Below are positions 25,914 through 42,560 of a stretch of 64,000 nt of DNA, piece after piece. The position numbers and the translations under genes were made by a program. Numbering within the stretch: position 1 is the stretch's first letter; each line of letters opens with the position of its first letter. The stretch comes from Streptomyces sp. NBC_01571 (GTDB lineage: Bacteria; Actinomycetota; Actinomycetes; Streptomycetales; Streptomycetaceae): contig NZ_JAPEPZ010000001.1 of assembly GCF_026339875.1 (NCBI RefSeq), positions 3,472,001-3,536,000 on the forward strand, in the 5' to 3' direction. Under the pieces are notes generated by a model. The model saw nothing but the letters and a program-made list of their open reading frames with translations. It did not search any database and was not told the origin of the DNA.

Positions 25914-26801
25914 ATGACGCAGCTCTCTACTGCCCCGAAGCAGCCCGTGGACGGTGCGCGGGCCACCACCGACAGCGGCAAGGCGCTGTACGGAGGCAAG
26001 AGCACCCGCCGCATCACGGTCCGCGACATCACCGCGGCCAAGGAGCGCGGCGAGAAGTGGCCCATGCTCACCGCCTACGACGCGATGACCGCGTCCGTCT
26101 TCGACGAGGCCGGCATCCCGGTGATGCTCGTCGGCGACTCGGCCGGCAACTGCCACCTCGGGTACGAGACGACCGTGCCCGTCACCCTCGACGAGATGAC
26201 GATGCTGTCCGCCGCGGTCGTCCGCGGCACCAGCCGCGCCCTGATCGTCGGCGACCTGCCCTTCGGCTCGTACCAGGAGGGTCCGGTGCAGGCCCTGCGC
26301 TCCGCCACCCGGCTGGTCAAGGAGGCCGGGGTCGGCGCGGTGAAGCTGGAGGGCGGCGAGCGCTCGCACCGCCAGATCGAACTGCTCGTGGAGTCCGGCA
26401 TCCCCGTCATGGCGCACATCGGCCTGACCCCGCAGTCCGTGAACTCCATGGGCTACCGCGTCCAGGGCCGTGGCGAGGAAGCCGCCCAGCAGCTGCTGCG
26501 CGACGCCAAGGCGGTCCAGGACGCGGGCGCGTTCGCCGTCGTACTGGAGCTGGTCCCGGCGGAGCTCGCCGCCGAGGTGACCCGCACCCTGCACATCCCG
26601 ACCGTCGGCATCGGCGCGGGCCCGGAGACCGACGCGCAGGTCCTGGTGTGGACCGACATGCTCGGCCTCACCGGTGGCAAGGTGCCGAAGTTCGTGAAGC
26701 AGTACGCCGATCTGCGCGCGGTCATGGGCAACGCGGCCCGCGCGTTCGCCGACGACGTCGTCGGCGGAACGTTCCCCCTCGAGGAGCACTCCGTCCACTA
26801 G
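25914..26801 (+). CDS. panB: 3-methyl-2-oxobutanoate hydroxymethyltransferase
   Basis: A 295-residue enzyme that adds the C1 unit of methylene-tetrahydrofolate to 2-oxoisovalerate, the first committed step of pantothenate and CoA synthesis. Family marks are LTAYDAMTASVFDEAGI, the metal-site VGDSAGNCHLGY, VGDLPFGSY, KLEGGE and HIGLTPQSVNSMGGY-like HIGLTPQSVNSMGYRVQGR. The ATG at 25914 follows AAGGAG; an in-frame ATG at 25893 lacks a good site. The length is usual. It stands alone between two terminator-bearing spacers. Confidence 0.94.
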   Translation: MTQLSTAPKQPVDGARATTDSGKALYGGKSTRRITVRDITAAKERGEKWPMLTAYDAMTASVFDEAGIPVMLVGDSAGNCHLGYETTVPVTLDEMTMLSAAVVRGTSRALIVGDLPFGSYQEGPVQALRSATRLVKEAGVGAVKLEGGERSHRQIELLVESGIPVMAHIGLTPQSVNSMGYRVQGRGEEAAQQLLRDAKAVQDAGAFAVVLELVPAELAAEVTRTLHIPTVGIGAGPETDAQVLVWTDMLGLTGGKVPKFVKQYADLRAVMGNAARAFADDVVGGTFPLEEHSVH

Positions 26802-26837: not shown

Positions 26838-26873
26838 GACAGCCCGCCGAACTTCCCCCGTCGGCGGGCTGTC
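26838..26873. terminator. Terminator after panB
   Basis: A perfect 13-bp stem (26838-26850 with 26861-26873) encloses a 10-base loop, 36 bp after the panB stop. Confidence 0.85.
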
Positions 26874-26903: not shown

Positions 26904-26974
26904 TGTCGGCGGCCTGTCGGCGGCCTGTCGGTGACCGCGGAGCGCTGTAGGCACCCTGTAGGCGGTTTGTCGGT
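26904..26974 (+). promoter_or_regulatory. Two triplets of 11-bp-spaced heptamers (SARP-type binding array)
   Basis: First triplet: TGTCGGC at 26904, TGTCGGC at 26915 and TGTCGGT at 26926. Second triplet: TGTAGGC at 26946, TGTAGGC at 26957 and TGTCGGT at 26968. Spacing within each triplet is exactly 11 bp. SARP activators are known to bind heptamer direct repeats spaced by 11 or 22 bp, with the last one about 8 bp before the -10 element. Here -10-like hexamers (TGACAT at 26981 or CATCTT at 26984) begin 6 or 9 bases after the last heptamer. An AfsR-like SARP regulator gene lies just downstream of the ABC genes. Confidence 0.65.
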
Positions 26975-26995
26975 GGGCACTGACATCTTGTGGCC

Positions 26996-28024
26996 ATGAC
27001 GCGAATCGACAAGAACCCCGGCAGCGGCGCCCGCAGCGCCGTCACCGTGCGGGGACTGGTCAAGCACTACGGCGAGACCAAGGCACTGGACGGCGTGGAC
27101 CTGGACGTCCACGAAGGCACCGTCCTCGGCGTGCTCGGTCCCAACGGCGCCGGCAAGACCACCCTCGTCCGCATCCTGTCCACCCTGGTCACCCCCGACG
27201 CCGGCCTGGCGACGGTGGCCGGCTACGACGTGCTCACCCAGCCCCGCCAGCTGCGCCGGGTGATAGGCCTCACCGGCCAGTACGCCTCGGTCGACGAGAA
27301 GCTCCCCGGCTGGGAGAACCTGTACATGATCGGGCGGCTGCTCGACCTGCCCCGCAAGGAGGCCCGCCGGCGCGCCGACGAGCTCCTGGAGCGCTTCTCC
27401 CTCACCGACGCCGCCAAGCGCCCCACCTCGACGTACTCCGGCGGTATGCGCCGCCGTCTCGACCTGGCCGCATCCATGATCGGCAACCCGTCCGTCCTCT
27501 ATCTGGACGAGCCGACCACCGGGCTGGACCCGCGCACCCGCAACGAGGTGTGGAAGGAGGTCAAGCGGATGGTGGCGGACGGCGCGACCGTGCTGCTCAC
27601 CACCCAGTACATGGAGGAGGCCGAACAGCTGGCCTCCGAGCTGACGGTCATCGACCGCGGCAAGGTCATCGCGAACGGCCGCATCGACGACCTCAAGGCA
27701 CGGGTGGGCGGCCGTACGCTGCGCATCCGCCCGCTGGACCCGCTGGAGCTGCGTCCGCTGGCCGCCCTCTTCGACGAGCTGGGCCTCACCGGTCTCGCGG
27801 CCACGGCCGTGGACATCGAGACCGGCACCGTGGTGGTGCCGATCCTCAGCGACGAACAGCTCACCGCCGTGGTCGGCGCGGTCAGCGCGCGCGGCATCAC
27901 GATCGCCTCCATCTCCACCGAACTGCCCAGTCTGGACGAGGTGTTCCTGTCCCTCACCGGCCACAAGGCCAGTGCCCCGCAGGACCCGTCCCCCGCCCGC
28001 GCCTACGAGGAGGTCTCCGCATGA
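26996..28024 (+). CDS. DrrA-like ABC exporter ATP-binding protein
   Basis: A 342-residue ATPase: Walker A GPNGAGKTT near residue 48, Q-loop GLTGQYASVDE, signature YSGGMRRRLDLA, Walker B VLYLDEPTTGLDP. TTQYMEEAE has Gln where most ABC ATPases have the switch His, which is usual in the DrrA subfamily. The C-terminal extension is the DrrA-type regulatory part. It powers export of a drug or secondary metabolite with the permease encoded next (ATGA overlap). No ribosome-binding site precedes the ATG at 26996 or the alternative GTG at 26990, so the mRNA may be leaderless. The promoter carries the SARP-like array. Confidence 0.9.
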   Translation: MTRIDKNPGSGARSAVTVRGLVKHYGETKALDGVDLDVHEGTVLGVLGPNGAGKTTLVRILSTLVTPDAGLATVAGYDVLTQPRQLRRVIGLTGQYASVDEKLPGWENLYMIGRLLDLPRKEARRRADELLERFSLTDAAKRPTSTYSGGMRRRLDLAASMIGNPSVLYLDEPTTGLDPRTRNEVWKEVKRMVADGATVLLTTQYMEEAEQLASELTVIDRGKVIANGRIDDLKARVGGRTLRIRPLDPLELRPLAALFDELGLTGLAATAVDIETGTVVVPILSDEQLTAVVGAVSARGITIASISTELPSLDEVFLSLTGHKASAPQDPSPARAYEEVSA

Positions 28025-28845
28025 GCACCGCCGTCGCCGATGCCCCCCTCGCCGCCCAGGGCGACCCGCGTATCTCACCCCGCGCGCACGCGCGCCACAT
28101 CGGCGCCCTCGTCCGCCGCAACCTGCTGTGGATCCGTCAGGACCCGGAGTCGATGTTCGACGCCGTCCTGATGCCGATCGTCTTCACCCTGCTGTTCGTG
28201 TACGTCTTCGGCGGTTCCATCGGGCAGTCGCTCGGCGGCGGGCAGGACCGGTACGTGCAGTACGTGGTGCCCGGTCTGATGGCGATGACGGCCATGAACA
28301 TCGCGACGGCCGTCGGCACCGGCTTCAACCAGGACTTCCAGACCGGTGTGATGGACCGCTTCCGCACCCTGCCGATCGGCCAGGGCTCGGTGCTCTTCGC
28401 CAAGATCGTGGTGGAGCTCATGCGGATGCTCGTCGCCACGACGATCCTCATGATCGTCGGCGTGCTGGTCGGCTTCGACATCACGAACTGGCCGGGCCTG
28501 TTCGCCTCCGTGGGCCTCGCCGTCCTCTTCGGCTCGGCCCTGATGTGGATCTTCCTGGTCCTCGGTGTGACGATGAAGAACGCGCAGTCCGTGCAGGCGA
28601 TGGGCTTCCTCGTCCTGATGCCCCTGCAGTTCGGTTCGTCGATCTTCTCGCCGCCCCGGACCATGCCGGGCTGGCTGCGCGCCTTCACCGACTACAACCC
28701 GCTGTCCACGCTCGCGGACACCACGCGCGGCCTCATGGTGGGCGGCCCGGTCGCGCACAGCCTGTGGGTGACCCTCGCCTGGACTGCGGGACTCACCGTG
28801 GTCATGGCGCCGATCGCGATCCACAAGTTCCGTACCAAGAGCTGA
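28021..28845 (+). CDS. DrrB-like ABC-2 type permease
   Basis: A 274-residue membrane protein with about six helices. It shows the ABC-2 family pattern: SMFDAVLMPIVFTLLFVYVFGGSI in helix 1, QYVVPGLMAMTAM, FRTLPIGQGSVLFAKIV before the third helix, and the conserved GWLRAFTDYNPLSTLADTTRGLMVG near the end. Its ATG overlaps the stop of the ATPase gene by ATGA, so the two are coupled. Together they form a homodimeric or heterotetrameric exporter like that of daunorubicin producers. The substrate is unknown. Confidence 0.9.
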   Translation: MSTAVADAPLAAQGDPRISPRAHARHIGALVRRNLLWIRQDPESMFDAVLMPIVFTLLFVYVFGGSIGQSLGGGQDRYVQYVVPGLMAMTAMNIATAVGTGFNQDFQTGVMDRFRTLPIGQGSVLFAKIVVELMRMLVATTILMIVGVLVGFDITNWPGLFASVGLAVLFGSALMWIFLVLGVTMKNAQSVQAMGFLVLMPLQFGSSIFSPPRTMPGWLRAFTDYNPLSTLADTTRGLMVGGPVAHSLWVTLAWTAGLTVVMAPIAIHKFRTKS

Positions 28846-28881: not shown

Positions 28882-31800
28882 TCACACGAGGGCGGCGGCC
28901 TCCACCACGGAGAGCGCGCCGCCCTCGGCGTACGCGGCCTCGTACGCCCCGTCGTCCAGCAGGGCCCGTACCCCGGCCTCGGCCCGGACCCGCACCTCGT
29001 CCTCCATCGGGCCCACGAAGTGGCCCGACGGCAGCAGCCGGTCGGCCGCGCCGAGCAGCACGGCCGCGTCACGCACCCGACGGCCGCCGTCCAGACCGGT
29101 GAGGGCGACGGCGGCGGTGGTCAGATGCGCGGAGGTCAGATGCGGCGCGATGACCTGCGACAGCGGATCGGCCGCCCGCGCCAGCGCCTTGCGCACCTTC
29201 ACCAGGGCGGCCTCGTGCAGGCCCTCCAGCGCGTCCAGCCAGGCCTCGATGCCCAGCACGAATCCGTCGAAGACCACGAAGGTGACGGCCTCGAAGTCCG
29301 CGCGCAGCAGCCGCATCTGCTCGCGCGCCTCGGAGACCCGGCCGCTGCGGGCCAGCCACATCGACAGGAAGAGCCGGGAGGCGGGCATGGCCTCGTTCAG
29401 CGTGCCCTCACCCCGGGCCAGCACGTCCCGCAGCATCCGCTCACCGCGCTCGGACTCGCCGGACTCGATGAGGACGCCGCCCAGCCGGGTGCTGAGCACG
29501 GCCGTCTGCGCGTGCGCGCCGAGCCCTTCGGCGTACGTCATCGCCTGGGCGTAGTCGTCGGCCGCGAGCCGGTAGGCGCCCCGGCGTTCATGGGCCTCGC
29601 CGCGCGCCGAGAGCGCCTCGGCGGCCCCCCAGGCGTCTCCGATCCGGGTGAAGATCTCCAGCGCCTCGTCCGCGTCCCGGACCGCGTCACCCGCCCAGGT
29701 GGCCCGGTTGGCGAGGACGTTGGCGCGCATCTGGAGGGCGACGCCCAGCTCCCACGCGTAGCCGAGCTCGCGACAGGTGCGGACGGTCTCGTCGATGACG
29801 GCGCGCATCCGGTCCATGTCGCCCGTCATGATCACGGCGTAGAACCAGAGGTTGCCGGGGCTGCGACAGGTCTGCGGCAGTCCCGGGCTGTAGGTCCGGC
29901 TGATGGCGCGCAGTTTCTCCTTGGCCTCGGGGGTCTCCCAGGCGCCCATGTCCATGTCCATGCAGGCGAGATGGACGAGATGCAGACCGCGGCGGGCCTC
30001 GTCGAGGATCTCGGGGCGCATCGGCGGCGGGGCGTCCGTGCAGCTCTCGGCCAGCGGGGGGACCGGCCGCAGGGGCTCGGCGAAGGGGTCGGGGCCGAGG
30101 GCCATGACCTCACGGGACCAGTGGCGGGCCATCAGCCGCAGGTCACGCATCTGCCAGTACCAGGCCAGCGAGAGGACGAGGCAGAGCGCCTCCTGTTCGT
30201 CACGGGTGGCGACGGCCCGCTGCAGGGCGGCCCTGAGGTTCTCCGACTCCCGTTCCATCCGCTCGATCGCGGTGCGCTGGCCGGTGCTGCGCAACTGGGG
30301 GTCGGTGGTGCGGGCGAGTTCCCGGTAGTACGTGAGGTGGTCGCGCTCGGCGGCGGAGCGCTGCCCGGACTCGTCGAGCCGTTCACCGGAGTACTCGGCG
30401 ACGGTCTCCAGGAGCCGGTAGCGCATCGCTCCGTCGCCGGAGGGGGCCGCGACGACGAGGGACTTGTCGACGAGCGAGCCGAGCGCCTCCAGGACCGCCG
30501 GGCCGCAGACGGCCTCGGCGGCGGCGAGGTCGCAGCCGCCCGCGAACACCGACAGCCGCCGCAGGACGTCCCGCTCGTCCCCGTCGAGAAGGTCCCAGGA
30601 CCAGTCGACGACGGCCCGCAGGGTCTGCTGGCGCGGCAGCACCGTACGACTGCCCGAGGTCAGCAGCCGGAACCGGTCGTCGAGCCGGTCGGCGATCTGC
30701 CGCGGGGTGAGCATCCGCAGCCGGGCGGCGGCGAGTTCGATGGCGAGCGGCAGGCCGTCGAGCCGGCGGCAGATCTCCGCCGCGGCCTCGGCGGTCCCGG
30801 CGTCGGCGTCGATCCGGAAGCCCGGCCGGGCGGCGGCCCCGCGGTCGGCGAACAGCCGCAGCGCGAACGGCTCCGGCAGCGGTTCCACGGGCCGCAGCAA
30901 CTCCCCCGGTACGCCGAGGGGTTCACGGCTGGTGGCCAGCACGGTCAGCCCCGGGCACCGCTCCAGCAGCTCCTCGGCCAGGTGCGCCGCGGCGTCCACC
31001 ACGTGCTCGCAGTTGTCGAGGATGAGCAGCATGTCGCGCTTGGAGCAGTACTCGGCGAGCCGGTGGAGGGGGTCGTCGTGCCGGTCGGAGGCGGCCCGCA
31101 TCTCCTCGGCGCCGGCGCCGCGCAGCACCGTCTCACGGGCTCCGACGGCGGTGAGTACGGCGTCGGGCACGGCCTTCGGGTCGTCGATCGGCGCGAGTTC
31201 GGCCAGCCACACCCCGTCGCGGGCCCCGGACGCGACGGCCTCCGCCGCCTCCTGCGACAGCCGGGTCTTCCCGGCGCCGCCGGGACCGAGCAGGGTCACC
31301 AGCCGTGCCGAGGCGAGGTCGCCCCGGATGGTGTCGATGTCGGCCTGCCGCCCGACGAACGAGGTCAGCCGGGCGCGGAGGTTGCCGGGCGGCGCGGACG
31401 CGACGGGGGCGGCGGGACCTCCCCCGGCCGCGGGGACGGGCGACGCGGGTGCGGGCCTGTGCCCGGTCGGCGCGGGGGTGGGTCGCGCGGGCGCGGTGCG
31501 GACGTCGGTGCCGCCCGCGTGCGCCGGGGGCCGTGGGGGCGGTGTCGGACCGGCCGGGCGCAGCAGCTCTCCGTGCAGCGCGCGGAGCTCCGGGCCGGGG
31601 TCGGAACCCAGCCGGTCGGCCAGCAGCGCGCGCAGCGACTCGTAGGCAGCCAGGGCCTCGGCGGGGCGGCCCGCGTCGCGCAGGGCGCGCAGCCGCAGGG
31701 CGTGCAGGGGCTCGTCCAGGGGGTGAAGGTCGCACAGGGCGGTGAGCTCGGGCAGGGACTGTTCGGCGTGGCCGAGTTCCAGGGCGGCGCCGAGGCGGGC

Positions 31801-32280
31801 GCGGCGCACGTCGAGGCGGCGGGTCTCCCAGCGGGCCGACTCGGCGGTGCGGTCCGGTAGGTCGGCCAGGGCCGGCCCGTGCCACAGCGCGAGGGCGTCG
31901 TCGAGGATCACGGCCGCCTTCGCGGGGTCGCCGTCGGCGAGCGCGCGTGCGCCCTCCCCCGCGAGCCGCTCGAAACGGTGCAGGTCGATGTCCTCGGGGG
32001 TCGCGACGAGCCGGTAGCCCCCGTCGACCGAGTCCACCACGCCCGCGCCGAGCGCCCGGCGCAGCCTTCCGACCAGCGCCTGCAGGGCTGCGGGCGCGTC
32101 GGCGGGCGGGTCGTCGTCCCACACCTCGTCGACCAGGACGGCGGCGGGCACGGTCCGGCCCGGCCGCAGCGCGAGCACGGTCAGCAGGGCACGCAGTCGC
32201 GCCCCGCCGACCGGGACGGCCGTGCCGTCGGTGCGGAGTGCCTGAGTGGTTCCGAGGATGCGGTAGCGCACGGGGTCCAT
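28882..32280 (-). CDS. AfsR-like giant regulator: SARP/BTAD, NB-ARC-type ATPase and TPR
   Basis: A 1132-residue regulator. Residues 1-95 form an OmpR-like winged helix (ILGTTQALRTDGTAVPVGGARLRALL), about 95-245 the BTAD domain (DALALWHGPALADLPD, LRALRDAGRPAEALAAYE) and about 245-305 a Pro/Ala linker. An ATPase follows with Walker A GPGGAGKT near 332-339 and Walker B MLLILDNCEHVV near 416, then ETVAEYSGERL and a long alpha-helical TPR-like C-terminus. ATG 32280 is chosen because GGAGA precedes it; an ATG at 32298 is possible. It converges on the ABC exporter, whose promoter carries SARP-like heptamers. ATP or phosphorylation would be expected to control DNA binding, as in AfsR. Confidence 0.9.
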   Translation of the reverse strand: MDPVRYRILGTTQALRTDGTAVPVGGARLRALLTVLALRPGRTVPAAVLVDEVWDDDPPADAPAALQALVGRLRRALGAGVVDSVDGGYRLVATPEDIDLHRFERLAGEGARALADGDPAKAAVILDDALALWHGPALADLPDRTAESARWETRRLDVRRARLGAALELGHAEQSLPELTALCDLHPLDEPLHALRLRALRDAGRPAEALAAYESLRALLADRLGSDPGPELRALHGELLRPAGPTPPPRPPAHAGGTDVRTAPARPTPAPTGHRPAPASPVPAAGGGPAAPVASAPPGNLRARLTSFVGRQADIDTIRGDLASARLVTLLGPGGAGKTRLSQEAAEAVASGARDGVWLAELAPIDDPKAVPDAVLTAVGARETVLRGAGAEEMRAASDRHDDPLHRLAEYCSKRDMLLILDNCEHVVDAAAHLAEELLERCPGLTVLATSREPLGVPGELLRPVEPLPEPFALRLFADRGAAARPGFRIDADAGTAEAAAEICRRLDGLPLAIELAAARLRMLTPRQIADRLDDRFRLLTSGSRTVLPRQQTLRAVVDWSWDLLDGDERDVLRRLSVFAGGCDLAAAEAVCGPAVLEALGSLVDKSLVVAAPSGDGAMRYRLLETVAEYSGERLDESGQRSAAERDHLTYYRELARTTDPQLRSTGQRTAIERMERESENLRAALQRAVATRDEQEALCLVLSLAWYWQMRDLRLMARHWSREVMALGPDPFAEPLRPVPPLAESCTDAPPPMRPEILDEARRGLHLVHLACMDMDMGAWETPEAKEKLRAISRTYSPGLPQTCRSPGNLWFYAVIMTGDMDRMRAVIDETVRTCRELGYAWELGVALQMRANVLANRATWAGDAVRDADEALEIFTRIGDAWGAAEALSARGEAHERRGAYRLAADDYAQAMTYAEGLGAHAQTAVLSTRLGGVLIESGESERGERMLRDVLARGEGTLNEAMPASRLFLSMWLARSGRVSEAREQMRLLRADFEAVTFVVFDGFVLGIEAWLDALEGLHEAALVKVRKALARAADPLSQVIAPHLTSAHLTTAAVALTGLDGGRRVRDAAVLLGAADRLLPSGHFVGPMEDEVRVRAEAGVRALLDDGAYEAAYAEGGALSVVEAAALV

Positions 32281-32483
32281 TGTCTCCGGTGACATCAAGT
32301 GCGGGCTTCGGGTACGGCGAGCCGGGCCGGTGTCCCCGTCCGGTCCGGGAGTCGAACGCCTCCGTCCCCGTACGGCCGTGGGCCCACCCTCTCCGGAACC
32401 AACGACCGATCGCGAGACGTTTTCCGTCCGAGCCCGGTACGGTCGGGCAGGCCCAGCACACGCGTACCAGTCCAGGGAGTCCC

Positions 32484-40134: not shown

Positions 40135-41283
40135 ATGCGAGCCGTCCGACTCTCAGTTGTCACCGCCGCCGCCACCGCGGCTGCTCTGGCCGCCGTCACG
40201 GGCTGCACCGAGAAGAGTGAAGCCCGGGACGGCGACGCGATCCAGGTGACCGCCGCCGACTCGAAGTGCACCACGTCGGCGAAGTCGGTCCCGGCGGGCC
40301 AGGTCACGCTGAAGATAGAGAACAAGGGCTCGCAGGCCACCGAGGTCGAGATCCTCTTCCCGGACGACCGGATCGTCTCCGAGAAGGAGAACATCGGCCC
40401 GGGCACCAAGTACACCCTGACCGCCGAGGTCAAGGCCGGCTCCTACGAGATCGCCTGCCGCCCCGGCATGAAGGGCCACGGCGTCCGACAGAAGCTCGCG
40501 GTCACCGGTGGCAAGGCCGCCCGGCGCGACCCGCGCCTGGACAAGGCCGTCGCCGCCTACCGCGAATACGCGCAGGAGCAGGCCGACTCGACGATCCCGA
40601 AGGTGCAGACGTTCGCCGACGCCGTCAAGGCCGGGAACATCGAGGCCGCCAAGCAGGCCTACGCCCCCTCGCGCGTGGGCTGGGAGAGCACCGAGCCGAT
40701 CGCCGAGTCCTTCGGCGACATCGACCCCAAGACCGACACCCGCGCCGACGGCCTGGAGAAGGGCCAGAAGTGGACCGGCTGGCACGCGCTGGAGAAGTCC
40801 CTCTGGGCGGACAAGAAGATCGGCGCCGAGCAGAAGACCCTCGCCGACCAGCTGGTCACCGACCTGAAGGACTGGCAGAAGCGGGTCGGCAAGGCCGAGA
40901 TCACCCCGACCTCCATGGCCAACGGCGCCAAGGAACTGCTCGACGAGGTCGCCACCGGCAAGGTCACCGGCGAGGAGGACCGCTACTCGCACACCGACCT
41001 CAGTGACTTCAAGGGCAACGTCGACGGCGCGCAGAAGTCTTACGAGCTGCTCAAGCCGGTCGCGCAGGAGAACGACAAGGCGCTGACCACCGAGCTCGAC
41101 AAGCAGTTCGCGGCGCTGAACACGGTGCTCGACAAGTACCGCTCGGACGATCCGCGGGAGAAGGAGCAGAACGGCTTCGTGTCGTACGACAAGGTCACCA
41201 AGGACCAGCGCAAGGAGCTCTCGGACGCGGTCAACGCGCTCGCCGAGCCCCTCTCCAAGCTCGCCGCGGCCGTGGTCAAGTAG
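40135..41283 (+). CDS. efeO: EfeO lipoprotein, cupredoxin plus M75 imelysin-like domain
   Basis: A 382-residue exported lipoprotein: signal peptide with lipobox AVTGC (Cys near 24), a cupredoxin-like domain with Cys and Met ligands (SKCTTSAKSVPAGQVTL, then CRPGMKGHG) and an M75 domain with the HxxE metal motif in GWHALEKSLW near 216-219. It binds iron outside the membrane and passes it to the permease EfeU. It is the first gene of efeO-efeB-efeU; the next gene starts 11 bp downstream. It is expected to be repressed by iron through the boxes upstream. Confidence 0.92.
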   Translation: MRAVRLSVVTAAATAAALAAVTGCTEKSEARDGDAIQVTAADSKCTTSAKSVPAGQVTLKIENKGSQATEVEILFPDDRIVSEKENIGPGTKYTLTAEVKAGSYEIACRPGMKGHGVRQKLAVTGGKAARRDPRLDKAVAAYREYAQEQADSTIPKVQTFADAVKAGNIEAAKQAYAPSRVGWESTEPIAESFGDIDPKTDTRADGLEKGQKWTGWHALEKSLWADKKIGAEQKTLADQLVTDLKDWQKRVGKAEITPTSMANGAKELLDEVATGKVTGEEDRYSHTDLSDFKGNVDGAQKSYELLKPVAQENDKALTTELDKQFAALNTVLDKYRSDDPREKEQNGFVSYDKVTKDQRKELSDAVNALAEPLSKLAAAVVK

Positions 41284-41294
41284 GCGAGGCGATC

Positions 41295-42560
41295 ATGACG
41301 ACGGACAGCACGGAATCCACCGACGGGCCCACACCGTCGCGGCGTTCACTGATCGGCTGGGGCGGTGCCGGGCTCGCGCTCGGTGCCGCCGCGGCCGGCG
41401 GCGCGGTGGCGATGACCCGTACCGGCAACGACGTGGACCCGGCGGGCGCCGAGACCGGCGCCGCCGTCGCCTTCCACGGAACCCACCAGGCGGGCATCGC
41501 CACGCCGGTCCAGGACCGGCTGCACTTCGCCGCGTTCGACGTGAAGACCGACGACCGCGCCGAGTTCGTCCAGATGCTCAAGGACTGGACGGCGGCCGCC
41601 CGCCGTATGACCGGCGGCCACACGGTCGGCGAGGGCGCCTACGGCGGCCTGGCCGAGGCGCCGCCGGACGACACCGGTGAGGCGCTGGGCCTCAAGCCGT
41701 CCCGGCTCACCCTGACCATCGGCTTCGGGCCGTCGCTCTTCGAGAAGTTCGGCCTGGCGCGGCAGCGCCCGCAGGCGCTCGTCGACCTGCCGACGTTCCC
41801 GGGCGACAACCTGGAAGGGGCGCGCAGCAACGGCGACCTGTGCATCCAGGCGTGCGCGGACGACCCGCAGGTCGCGGTGCACGCGATCCGCAACCTGGCC
41901 CGGATCGGTTTCGGCAAGGTCGCCATCCGCTGGTCGCAGCTCGGCTTCGGCAAGACCTCGTCGACGACGCCGGACGCGCAGACCCCCCGCAACCTGATGG
42001 GTTTCAAGGACGGCACCCGCAACATCGCGGGCACCGAGCCGGAGCGGCTGAAGAAGTTCGTGTGGGTCGGCGAGGGCGACGGCGCGGACTGGATGACCGG
42101 TGGCTCGTACCTCGTGGCGCGCCGTATCCGGATGAACATCGAGACCTGGGACCGCACCTCGCTGCAGGAGCAGGAGGACGTGTTCGGCCGGGACAAGGGC
42201 GAGGGCGCGCCGGCCGGCAAGGCCAAGGAGCGCGACGAGCCGTTCCTGAAGGCGATGAAGCCGGACGCGCACGTCCGGCTCGCGCATCCCGAGTCCAACG
42301 ACGGGATCACCCTGCTGCGCCGCGGCTACTCCTTCACGGACGGCACCGACGGTCTGGGCCGGCTGGAGGCGGGGCTGTTCTTCCTCGCGTACCAGCGGGA
42401 CGTGCGCAAGGGGTTCATCCCCGTGCAGCGCCGGCTCTCGCACTCCGACGCGCTCAACGAGTACATCCAGCACGTGAGTTCGGCGGTCTTCGCCGTCCCA
42501 CCCGGCGTCCGCGACAAGGACGACTGGTGGGGGCGCACGCTGTTCGCCAAGGAGGCGTAG
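41295..42560 (+). CDS. efeB: EfeB deferrochelatase / DyP-type peroxidase
   Basis: A 421-residue heme peroxidase exported by the Tat pathway: twin-arginine motif RRSLIGWGGAG near residues 16-26. The DyP signature GFKDGTRN lies near 235, with the catalytic Asp, and the proximal heme His region is in the C-terminal half (DAHVRLAHPESN). It is thought to oxidise ferrous iron or help remove iron from heme for uptake. It sits between efeO (11 bp) and efeU (3 bp), so all three are co-translated. Confidence 0.92.
   Translation: MTTDSTESTDGPTPSRRSLIGWGGAGLALGAAAAGGAVAMTRTGNDVDPAGAETGAAVAFHGTHQAGIATPVQDRLHFAAFDVKTDDRAEFVQMLKDWTAAARRMTGGHTVGEGAYGGLAEAPPDDTGEALGLKPSRLTLTIGFGPSLFEKFGLARQRPQALVDLPTFPGDNLEGARSNGDLCIQACADDPQVAVHAIRNLARIGFGKVAIRWSQLGFGKTSSTTPDAQTPRNLMGFKDGTRNIAGTEPERLKKFVWVGEGDGADWMTGGSYLVARRIRMNIETWDRTSLQEQEDVFGRDKGEGAPAGKAKERDEPFLKAMKPDAHVRLAHPESNDGITLLRRGYSFTDGTDGLGRLEAGLFFLAYQRDVRKGFIPVQRRLSHSDALNEYIQHVSSAVFAVPPGVRDKDDWWGRTLFAKEA

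Follow-up and report, generated by a model that had tools for sequence, protein, structure and literature searches.

The window, the whole 64-kb stretch of Streptomyces sp. NBC_01571 DNA analyzed here, contains an ABC ATPase gene and a membrane permease gene convergent to the gene of a large SARP-type regulator, with an array of heptameric repeats directly before the ATPase gene. The features of the locus are:

26010–26777, + strand: panB (ketopantoate hydroxymethyltransferase domain), the upstream neighbor of the array
26838–26873: 13-bp perfect inverted repeat after panB, a possible terminator
26904–26932, + strand: distal triplet in 11-bp steps, TGTCGGC (26904–26910), TGTCGGC (26915–26921), and TGTCGGT (26926–26932)
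26946–26974, + strand: proximal triplet in 11-bp steps, TGTAGGC (26946–26952), TGTAGGC (26957–26963), and TGTCGGT (26968–26974); the core site, which is conserved and overlaps the -35 region
26981–26989, + strand: extended -10 element TG-A-CATCTT (TG at 26981–26982, hexamer CATCTT at 26984–26989)
26996–28024, + strand: DrrA-like ABC ATPase (PF00005, PF13732; TIGR01188)
28021–28845, + strand: ABC-2 membrane permease (PF01061, 107.5 bits, cut-off 26.9), overlapping the ATPase gene by 4 bp
28882–32298, − strand: large convergent SARP with an OmpR-type HTH, a BTAD, a STAND-type ATPase, and a long C-terminal part

Read directly from the window, the six heptamers (TGT(C/A)GG(C/T)) all lie on the + strand in steps of 11, 11, 20, 11, and 11 bp, and the two 11-bp-spaced triplets described in the first-pass annotation are indeed present, with starts at 26904, 26915, and 26926 and at 26946, 26957, and 26968; the 20-bp gap between the triplets corresponds to one two-turn step. 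The + strand of the window carries four heptamer doublets and two triplets, compared with 0.02 doublets and 0 triplets expected per 64-kb strand from 150 order-1 Markov sequences modelled on the window. When we ran the genome-wide heptamer search that the first-pass annotation had proposed, exact triplets were found only at this locus in the strain's own 11.5-Mb genome. Allowing up to two mismatches yielded one further triplet place there (C8:42320, locus L003), and three more exact doublets were found (L114, L119, and L120), with those at L114 and L119 lying inside long open frames with GC-rich third positions. A 33-bp element composed of two heptamers and the extended -10 matched the window site alone in this genome at up to two mismatches.

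The extended -10 that follows the last heptamer reads TGACATCTT, and nine bases separate the end of that heptamer from CATCTT, which agrees with the -10-like element that had been placed 6–9 bases past the array. SARP-dependent promoters carry 11-bp direct repeats, the last of them ~8 bp from the -10; the array has 11-bp steps and a distance of 9 bp, and the earlier reading of its spacing as known SARP-binding geometry is supported as far as sequence goes. Because no ribosome-binding site is evident between the -10 hexamer and the ATPase ATG (26996), which lies 6 nt past it, the ATPase mRNA is probably leaderless. Upstream, the inverted repeat at 26838–26873 is a possible terminator separating panB from the array; this hairpin holds TCGGCGGGCTGTC, which is near the heptamer word, and by eye similar words precede several orthologous arrays. 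Such a word might have been the seed of the repeats.

The exporter had been described as DrrAB-like, which we found to hold for one of its two subunits. The ATPase passes the drrA model TIGR01188 (393.3 bits versus a cut-off of 312.45), and its top-scoring model is the Otr(C) ATPase, yet under that model's cut-off (415 versus 750). The permease is an ABC-2 protein by Pfam and falls below the drrB cut-offs (63.4 of 223 bits for TIGR01247 and 68.7 of 146.9 for TIGR00025). At E ≤ 1e-60, 219 of 245 genomes from the order contain a match to it. The likeness to DrrAB- and Otr(C)-type drug exporters thus lies in the drrA-type ATPase and the ABC-2 permease, and the differences are the permease score and the surroundings, in which we saw no adjoining biosynthetic cluster. 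The neighbors scanned with Pfam, a part of the genes in the window, include an MFS protein, an NAD synthase, a kumamolisin-like protease, an F420-type oxidoreductase, a BNR-repeat protein, a TetR protein, an EfeO-like protein, and a DyP peroxidase, with no biosynthetic cluster among them, which fits the earlier placement of the locus outside any antibiotic cluster. A cupredoxin/imelysin protein followed by the DyP peroxidase (40135–42560) forms an EfeOB-like iron-uptake pair.

The end of the SARP gene lies 36 bp from the permease stop, and its start can be placed at a TTG (1,138 codons) or at an ATG at 32280 (1,132 codons), the latter giving the 1,132-residue, convergent, AfsR-like large SARP of the first-pass annotation. 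Its N terminus matches PF00486 Trans_reg_C (33.8 bits, cut-off 26.2) and then PF03704 BTAD (146.1, cut-off 22.1), and residues 330–446 match the ATPase family PF13401 AAA_22 (29.1 bits, cut-off 27), with STAND-specific models under their cut-offs. At the C terminus, there is no Pfam TPR family, and all NCBIfam TPR-protein matches are below cut-off. Relatives in the PDB are AfsR (8hvr, 8k60, and 8jke) and EmbR (2fez). In the strain's own genome, three SARP matches, each containing one in-frame TGA, occur in triplicate at identical scores (C1:18–32 kb, C2:2.5–16 kb, and C3:263–277 kb), which suggests a repeated, perhaps terminal, segment in the assembly.

To place the locus among its relatives, we used the best 80 of 582 confirmed loci from a search with the SARP gene; all come from Streptomyces and relatives and hence are not independent events. 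In 80 of these best 80 of 582 loci, an ATPase and a permease gene are convergent to the large SARP, and in the same 80 of 80 the ATPase promoter carries an array by our rule (three heptamers with ≤2 mismatches in total, steps of 10–12, one gap of 20–23 allowed), versus 0 of 4,000 random 250-bp pieces taken from the same loci on the strand opposite to the array. In 61 of the 80, panB is found on the same strand no more than 4 kb upstream; of the remaining 19, 5 include less than 1.2 kb of upstream DNA. The rule was passed by 35 of 37 further ABC promoters, picked by permease similarity or as special cases (L279 and L283 fail), and each of the 30 loci returned by a search with the exact pattern is the site of the ATPase ortholog. 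Within the loci of the SARP search, doublets sit at the ABC promoter, the exception being one opposite-strand doublet (L057); we saw no sign in these loci of SARP autoregulation through the array and dropped this idea, as the doublets are at the ABC promoter wherever the flanks are covered. Four loci (L072, L077, L078, and L083) considered as natural nulls lacking the DNA-binding domain were rejected, the domain being present in frame.

For base-level comparison, we assembled 111 promoters; 108 of them were sufficiently different to be counted, and the last heptamer served as anchor in 107. Of these 107, 27 came from the exact-pattern search and are thus biased toward the array, and the other 80 are 79 SARP-search loci plus the window. 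The exact proximal triplet is present in 83 of the 107 (57 of the 80 that were not pattern-found). Within the heptamers, 17 of 21 columns reach at least 1.5 bits (16 of 21 in the 80), and upstream of the core triplet, 48 of 53 columns stay below 0.4 bits (46 of 53 in the 80), with spacer and some flank columns partly conserved (for example, -38, with 79% G and 0.92 bits). An array lost among orthologs that keep its flanks was the outcome that the first-pass annotation had named as speaking against its reading; we found the reverse, an array kept throughout the best 80 loci with flanks that are mostly unconserved. The -10 is similarly fixed, with its last T in 107 of 107 anchored promoters and the TG letters in 102 and 106 of 107, and in orthologs it is mostly CACCGT/CACCTT-like (consensus CACCGT). 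Counted from the ATG, the start of the last repeat is at -29 in 85 and at -28 in 14 of the 100 promoters whose last heptamer is exact, the window being one of the 14.

Copies beyond the core triplet follow the same geometry. We counted 120 exact distal heptamers in the 107 promoters, whereas 200 shuffles gave 4.9 on average and never more than 10, and the opposite strand of the same promoters has 16. At a period of 10.6 bp, the distal copies are phased with the core (R = 0.79, versus ≤0.30 in 2,000 random sets), although copies within one promoter are not independent and the phase p values are too small for this reason; in the 80 promoters that were not pattern-found, R is 0.81 at 10.7 bp. Their number varies among orthologs, and the helical phase is kept. 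The first-pass annotation had called the number of repeats unusual, which is right in degree: at least six exact copies within 100 bp occur in 8 of the 107 anchored promoters, three being the commonest number.

These comparisons bear on the simplest alternative, that the repeats are accidental or structural and play no part in regulation. GC-rich tandem words do arise, and one of the array places described below (L162) is a plain 11-bp tandem without a clear target, but only ~0.0004 exact triplets are expected by chance in 11.5 Mb on both strands, and an exact triplet is found in 243 of 392 Streptomyces genomes, versus 18 of 392 with a non-zero count for a reversed-pattern control (our own tally). 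The constant distance to the -10 also argues against it. With this expectation, the genus-wide recurrence, and no other exact triplet in the strain's own genome, we dropped the chance reading as extremely improbable. Because relatives of the strain keep the same arrangement, the array looks like a conserved control unit.

The best-described counterpart is AfsR of S. coelicolor. According to the afs-box passages of PMC10936776, the box has 11-bp repeats at -40 to -30 and -29 to -19 from the TSS, AfsR contacts the first 8 bp of each repeat, Arg92 reads T-38 (repeat position 3), Thr88 reads the base opposite repeat position 5, and the afsS promoter has a weak -10, CACTGT. With the ATPase ATG taken as +1, the starts of the ortholog repeats fall at -29 and -40, in the same register as the afs box. 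The conserved part of the ortholog repeat is the heptamer plus the next G, which matches the first-8-bp contact zone in those same passages (PMC10936776); also alike are a large SARP with an ATPase part, the 11-bp repeats, and a weak CANNNT -10 (PDB 8hvr, 8k60, and 8jke). In an alignment of the window SARP with AfsR, Trp74, Pro79, Arg92, and Arg94 are kept and Lys95 is Arg, and Thr88 is replaced by Ala, Arg87 by Gln, Ser91 by Gly, and Gln48 by Arg. In the first and second core repeats, position 3 is a T in 107 of 107 promoters; in the third, the anchor dictates the letter. Because Arg92 and this invariant T are kept while Thr88, Arg87, Ser91, and Gln48 are replaced, the grip on DNA looks the same as in AfsR, with a read-out that would differ at other bases, as the box does. 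The two systems also differ in the heptamer (TGTCGGY here versus the CGTTCAT type), in the target (an exporter rather than afsS), in the number of repeats (three core repeats plus phased distal copies versus two), and in family membership, as the window SARP scores 181 bits on the NCBIfam AfsR equivalog model SARPRegAfsRStmc, whose cut-off is 1,430.

In the strain's own genome, we take AfsR to be the SARP gene at C1:4779555, which adjoins an afsS-like small gene, and we take afsS from its place after this AfsR-like SARP and its repeats. By eye, the promoter of the presumed afsS carries a different repeat, CGTTCATCGAACGTTTATC, of the CGTTCAT/CGTTTAT type, and on account of this presumed afs box, we dropped AfsR as the reader of the array. 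The difference at base-reading residue 88 (Thr versus Ala) likewise argues against AfsR, and the company that the array keeps at SIP genes, where it goes with the window-SARP clade, argues against both AfsR and any other OmpR-type regulator. PhoP-type proteins are OmpR-type regulators with 11-bp direct repeats, and we consider it very unlikely that one of them, or AfsR itself, reads the array. In favor of AfsR, its box in the passages cited above (PMC10936776) shares this geometry, and the -10 sequences resemble each other.

Arrays of this kind are also found at SIP genes. In genome G225, a 51% relative of the SARP is convergent to a gene for a SIP-type flavoprotein, and the array is at the SIP promoter. 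We scored 300 bp before the match at 13 SIP loci (L161 plus the first 12 of 30 SIP loci listed), finding the array in 5 of 5 with a convergent SARP of this clade (L161, L195, L196, L197, and L204) and in 0 of 8 without one; two of the five arrays (L196 and L204) are degenerate, and both sequences were known before the rule was chosen. A stricter doublet pattern gives 3 of 5 versus 0 of 8 at these loci and none in the remaining 18 SIP loci, which were scored for this pattern alone. Some SARP-less SIP loci (L199, L201, L203, and L206) have TTACG-type palindromes instead. The ABC promoters that fail the rule are of two kinds. At L279 (G503, another genus of the family), no SARP accompanies the ABC genes within the 15 kb covered, and their promoter shows only TGTCAGC words at -71, -60, and -40, with none at -29; at L280 (G527, a further genus), SARP and array are both present. 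L283 (G419:C1:1217000–1232000) fails although a SARP (61%) is present, its repeats reading TGTAGGA/TGTCGGG/TGTCAGC; this genome has the usual SARP-ABC module (L284) and, as L283, a diverged second one with drifted repeats.

This co-occurrence also weighs on a closer competitor. The strain's own genome encodes an orphan paralog (C1:5115659–5119000) whose recognition-helix letters, QALVGRLRR, are identical to those of the window SARP; its locus (L150, C1:5108000–5124000) adjoins a gene with sigma-70 and NPCBM domains. This paralog could be the main reader of the array, or both paralogs could read it, the neighboring SARP then only tuning the promoter. It is widespread, with matches of at least 65% identity in 55 of 121 genomes (our own tally, partial matches included), and no array was seen at its own locus, so its targets would lie elsewhere. 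We nevertheless judge this reading improbable: the array adjoins the module SARP in 80 of the best 80 of 582 loci, and at SIP genes it is present with a clade SARP and absent without one, in the counts given above.

Arrays are also found before genes of other kinds. From the matches listed in the pattern search, we deliberately chose 12 array places that were odd or second in their own genome, and these precede six flavin monooxygenase genes, one SIP gene, one short-chain dehydrogenase gene, one response-regulator-like start (by eye), and two ABC genes, the last place being a plain 11-bp tandem. This tandem (GTCTTGTCGGC; L162, G359:C5 near 160445) has four copies and no clear -10 or target gene. 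The flavin monooxygenase call rests on FAD_binding_3 by Pfam in the four tested and on similarity in the other two; for two that were tested, the best NCBIfam match is Tet(X), far under cut-off. Among the 30 best-scoring FAD loci (L207–L236), 24 have an array by the rule, versus 0 of 6,000 shuffles, which is not a genus rate, as the 30 are the top scorers from a longer list and the query itself has an array. The arrays at FAD genes (L153–L157, L160, and L207–L236) often have 3–5 copies with a leadered -10. Of the six array-less FAD loci, five (L208, L213, L225, L231, and L235) show TGGAAC...GTTCCA-like palindromes by eye. The strain's own genome has three more distant FAD relatives and no second exact-triplet site. 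Either the window SARP or the orphan paralog, which share their recognition-helix letters, may read the FAD promoters.

We regard it as highly probable, from comparative sequence evidence, that the array is the operator of a drrAB-like operon, read by the convergent SARP, which would activate the exporter through the phased multi-copy array as a switch of the core genome. SARP protomers would line up next to each other along the 11-bp repeats; those bound to the final two copies would occupy the -35 place and hold RNA polymerase at the weak extended -10 promoter, which would start the apparently leaderless ATPase mRNA, and the extra helically phased copies upstream would load further protomers. 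The STAND ATPase and the C-terminal part would presumably gate SARP activity in response to a small molecule, and the exporter would therefore be made when this molecule, either toxic or the cell's own metabolite, is present.

SARPs have been studied mostly as activators inside antibiotic clusters. Pathway-specific SARPs, in the binding-site passages of PMC10972967, use heptameric direct repeats overlapping the -35, two or three per site, and the array resembles the sites of ActII-ORF4, DnrI, and SanG in this respect. These three act inside biosynthetic clusters, whereas the window SARP adjoins an exporter with no cluster among the scanned neighbors, and the exporter promoter is the one place in the genome with exact triplets. 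For S. avermitilis, the relevant part of PMC8780764 predicts SARP heptamer sites from TSS data with 4- or 15-nt spacing upstream of TSSs, similar to the spaced heptamers here, with the difference that the predictions in that part are confined to secondary-metabolite clusters. SARP activation is a mechanism of a known kind; new here appear to be the box itself, an exporter as a target outside any cluster, additional copies in phase, and co-targets of a detoxification-like character. We found no report of the SARP-exporter module, nor any literature on SCO2257–SCO2259, taken as gene names for the module, in a search that covered open-licence papers alone and is weak evidence of absence.

From its sequence, the candidate SARP-exporter switch is spread through Streptomyces, on a larger scale than the first-pass annotation had seen. 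One SARP seems to have an exporter of its own and a defined DNA code, by which its targets can be listed across genomes, and this makes testable the molecule sensed by a STAND-type SARP, the cargo of the exporter, and the effect of phased extra repeats on promoter strength. Taken as targets, an exporter and flavin monooxygenases suggest a role in self-protection or detoxification. More tentatively, we suggest as a possibility a genus-wide chemical-defence regulon outside antibiotic clusters, in which NLR-like (STAND) SARPs sharing one recognition helix might sense a toxic molecule and, through the phased TGTCGGY code, switch on the exporter as its core and TetX-like flavin monooxygenases and the SIP-type flavoprotein as its variable part. 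If this is true, SARPs would be xenobiotic sensors besides activators of antibiotic production.
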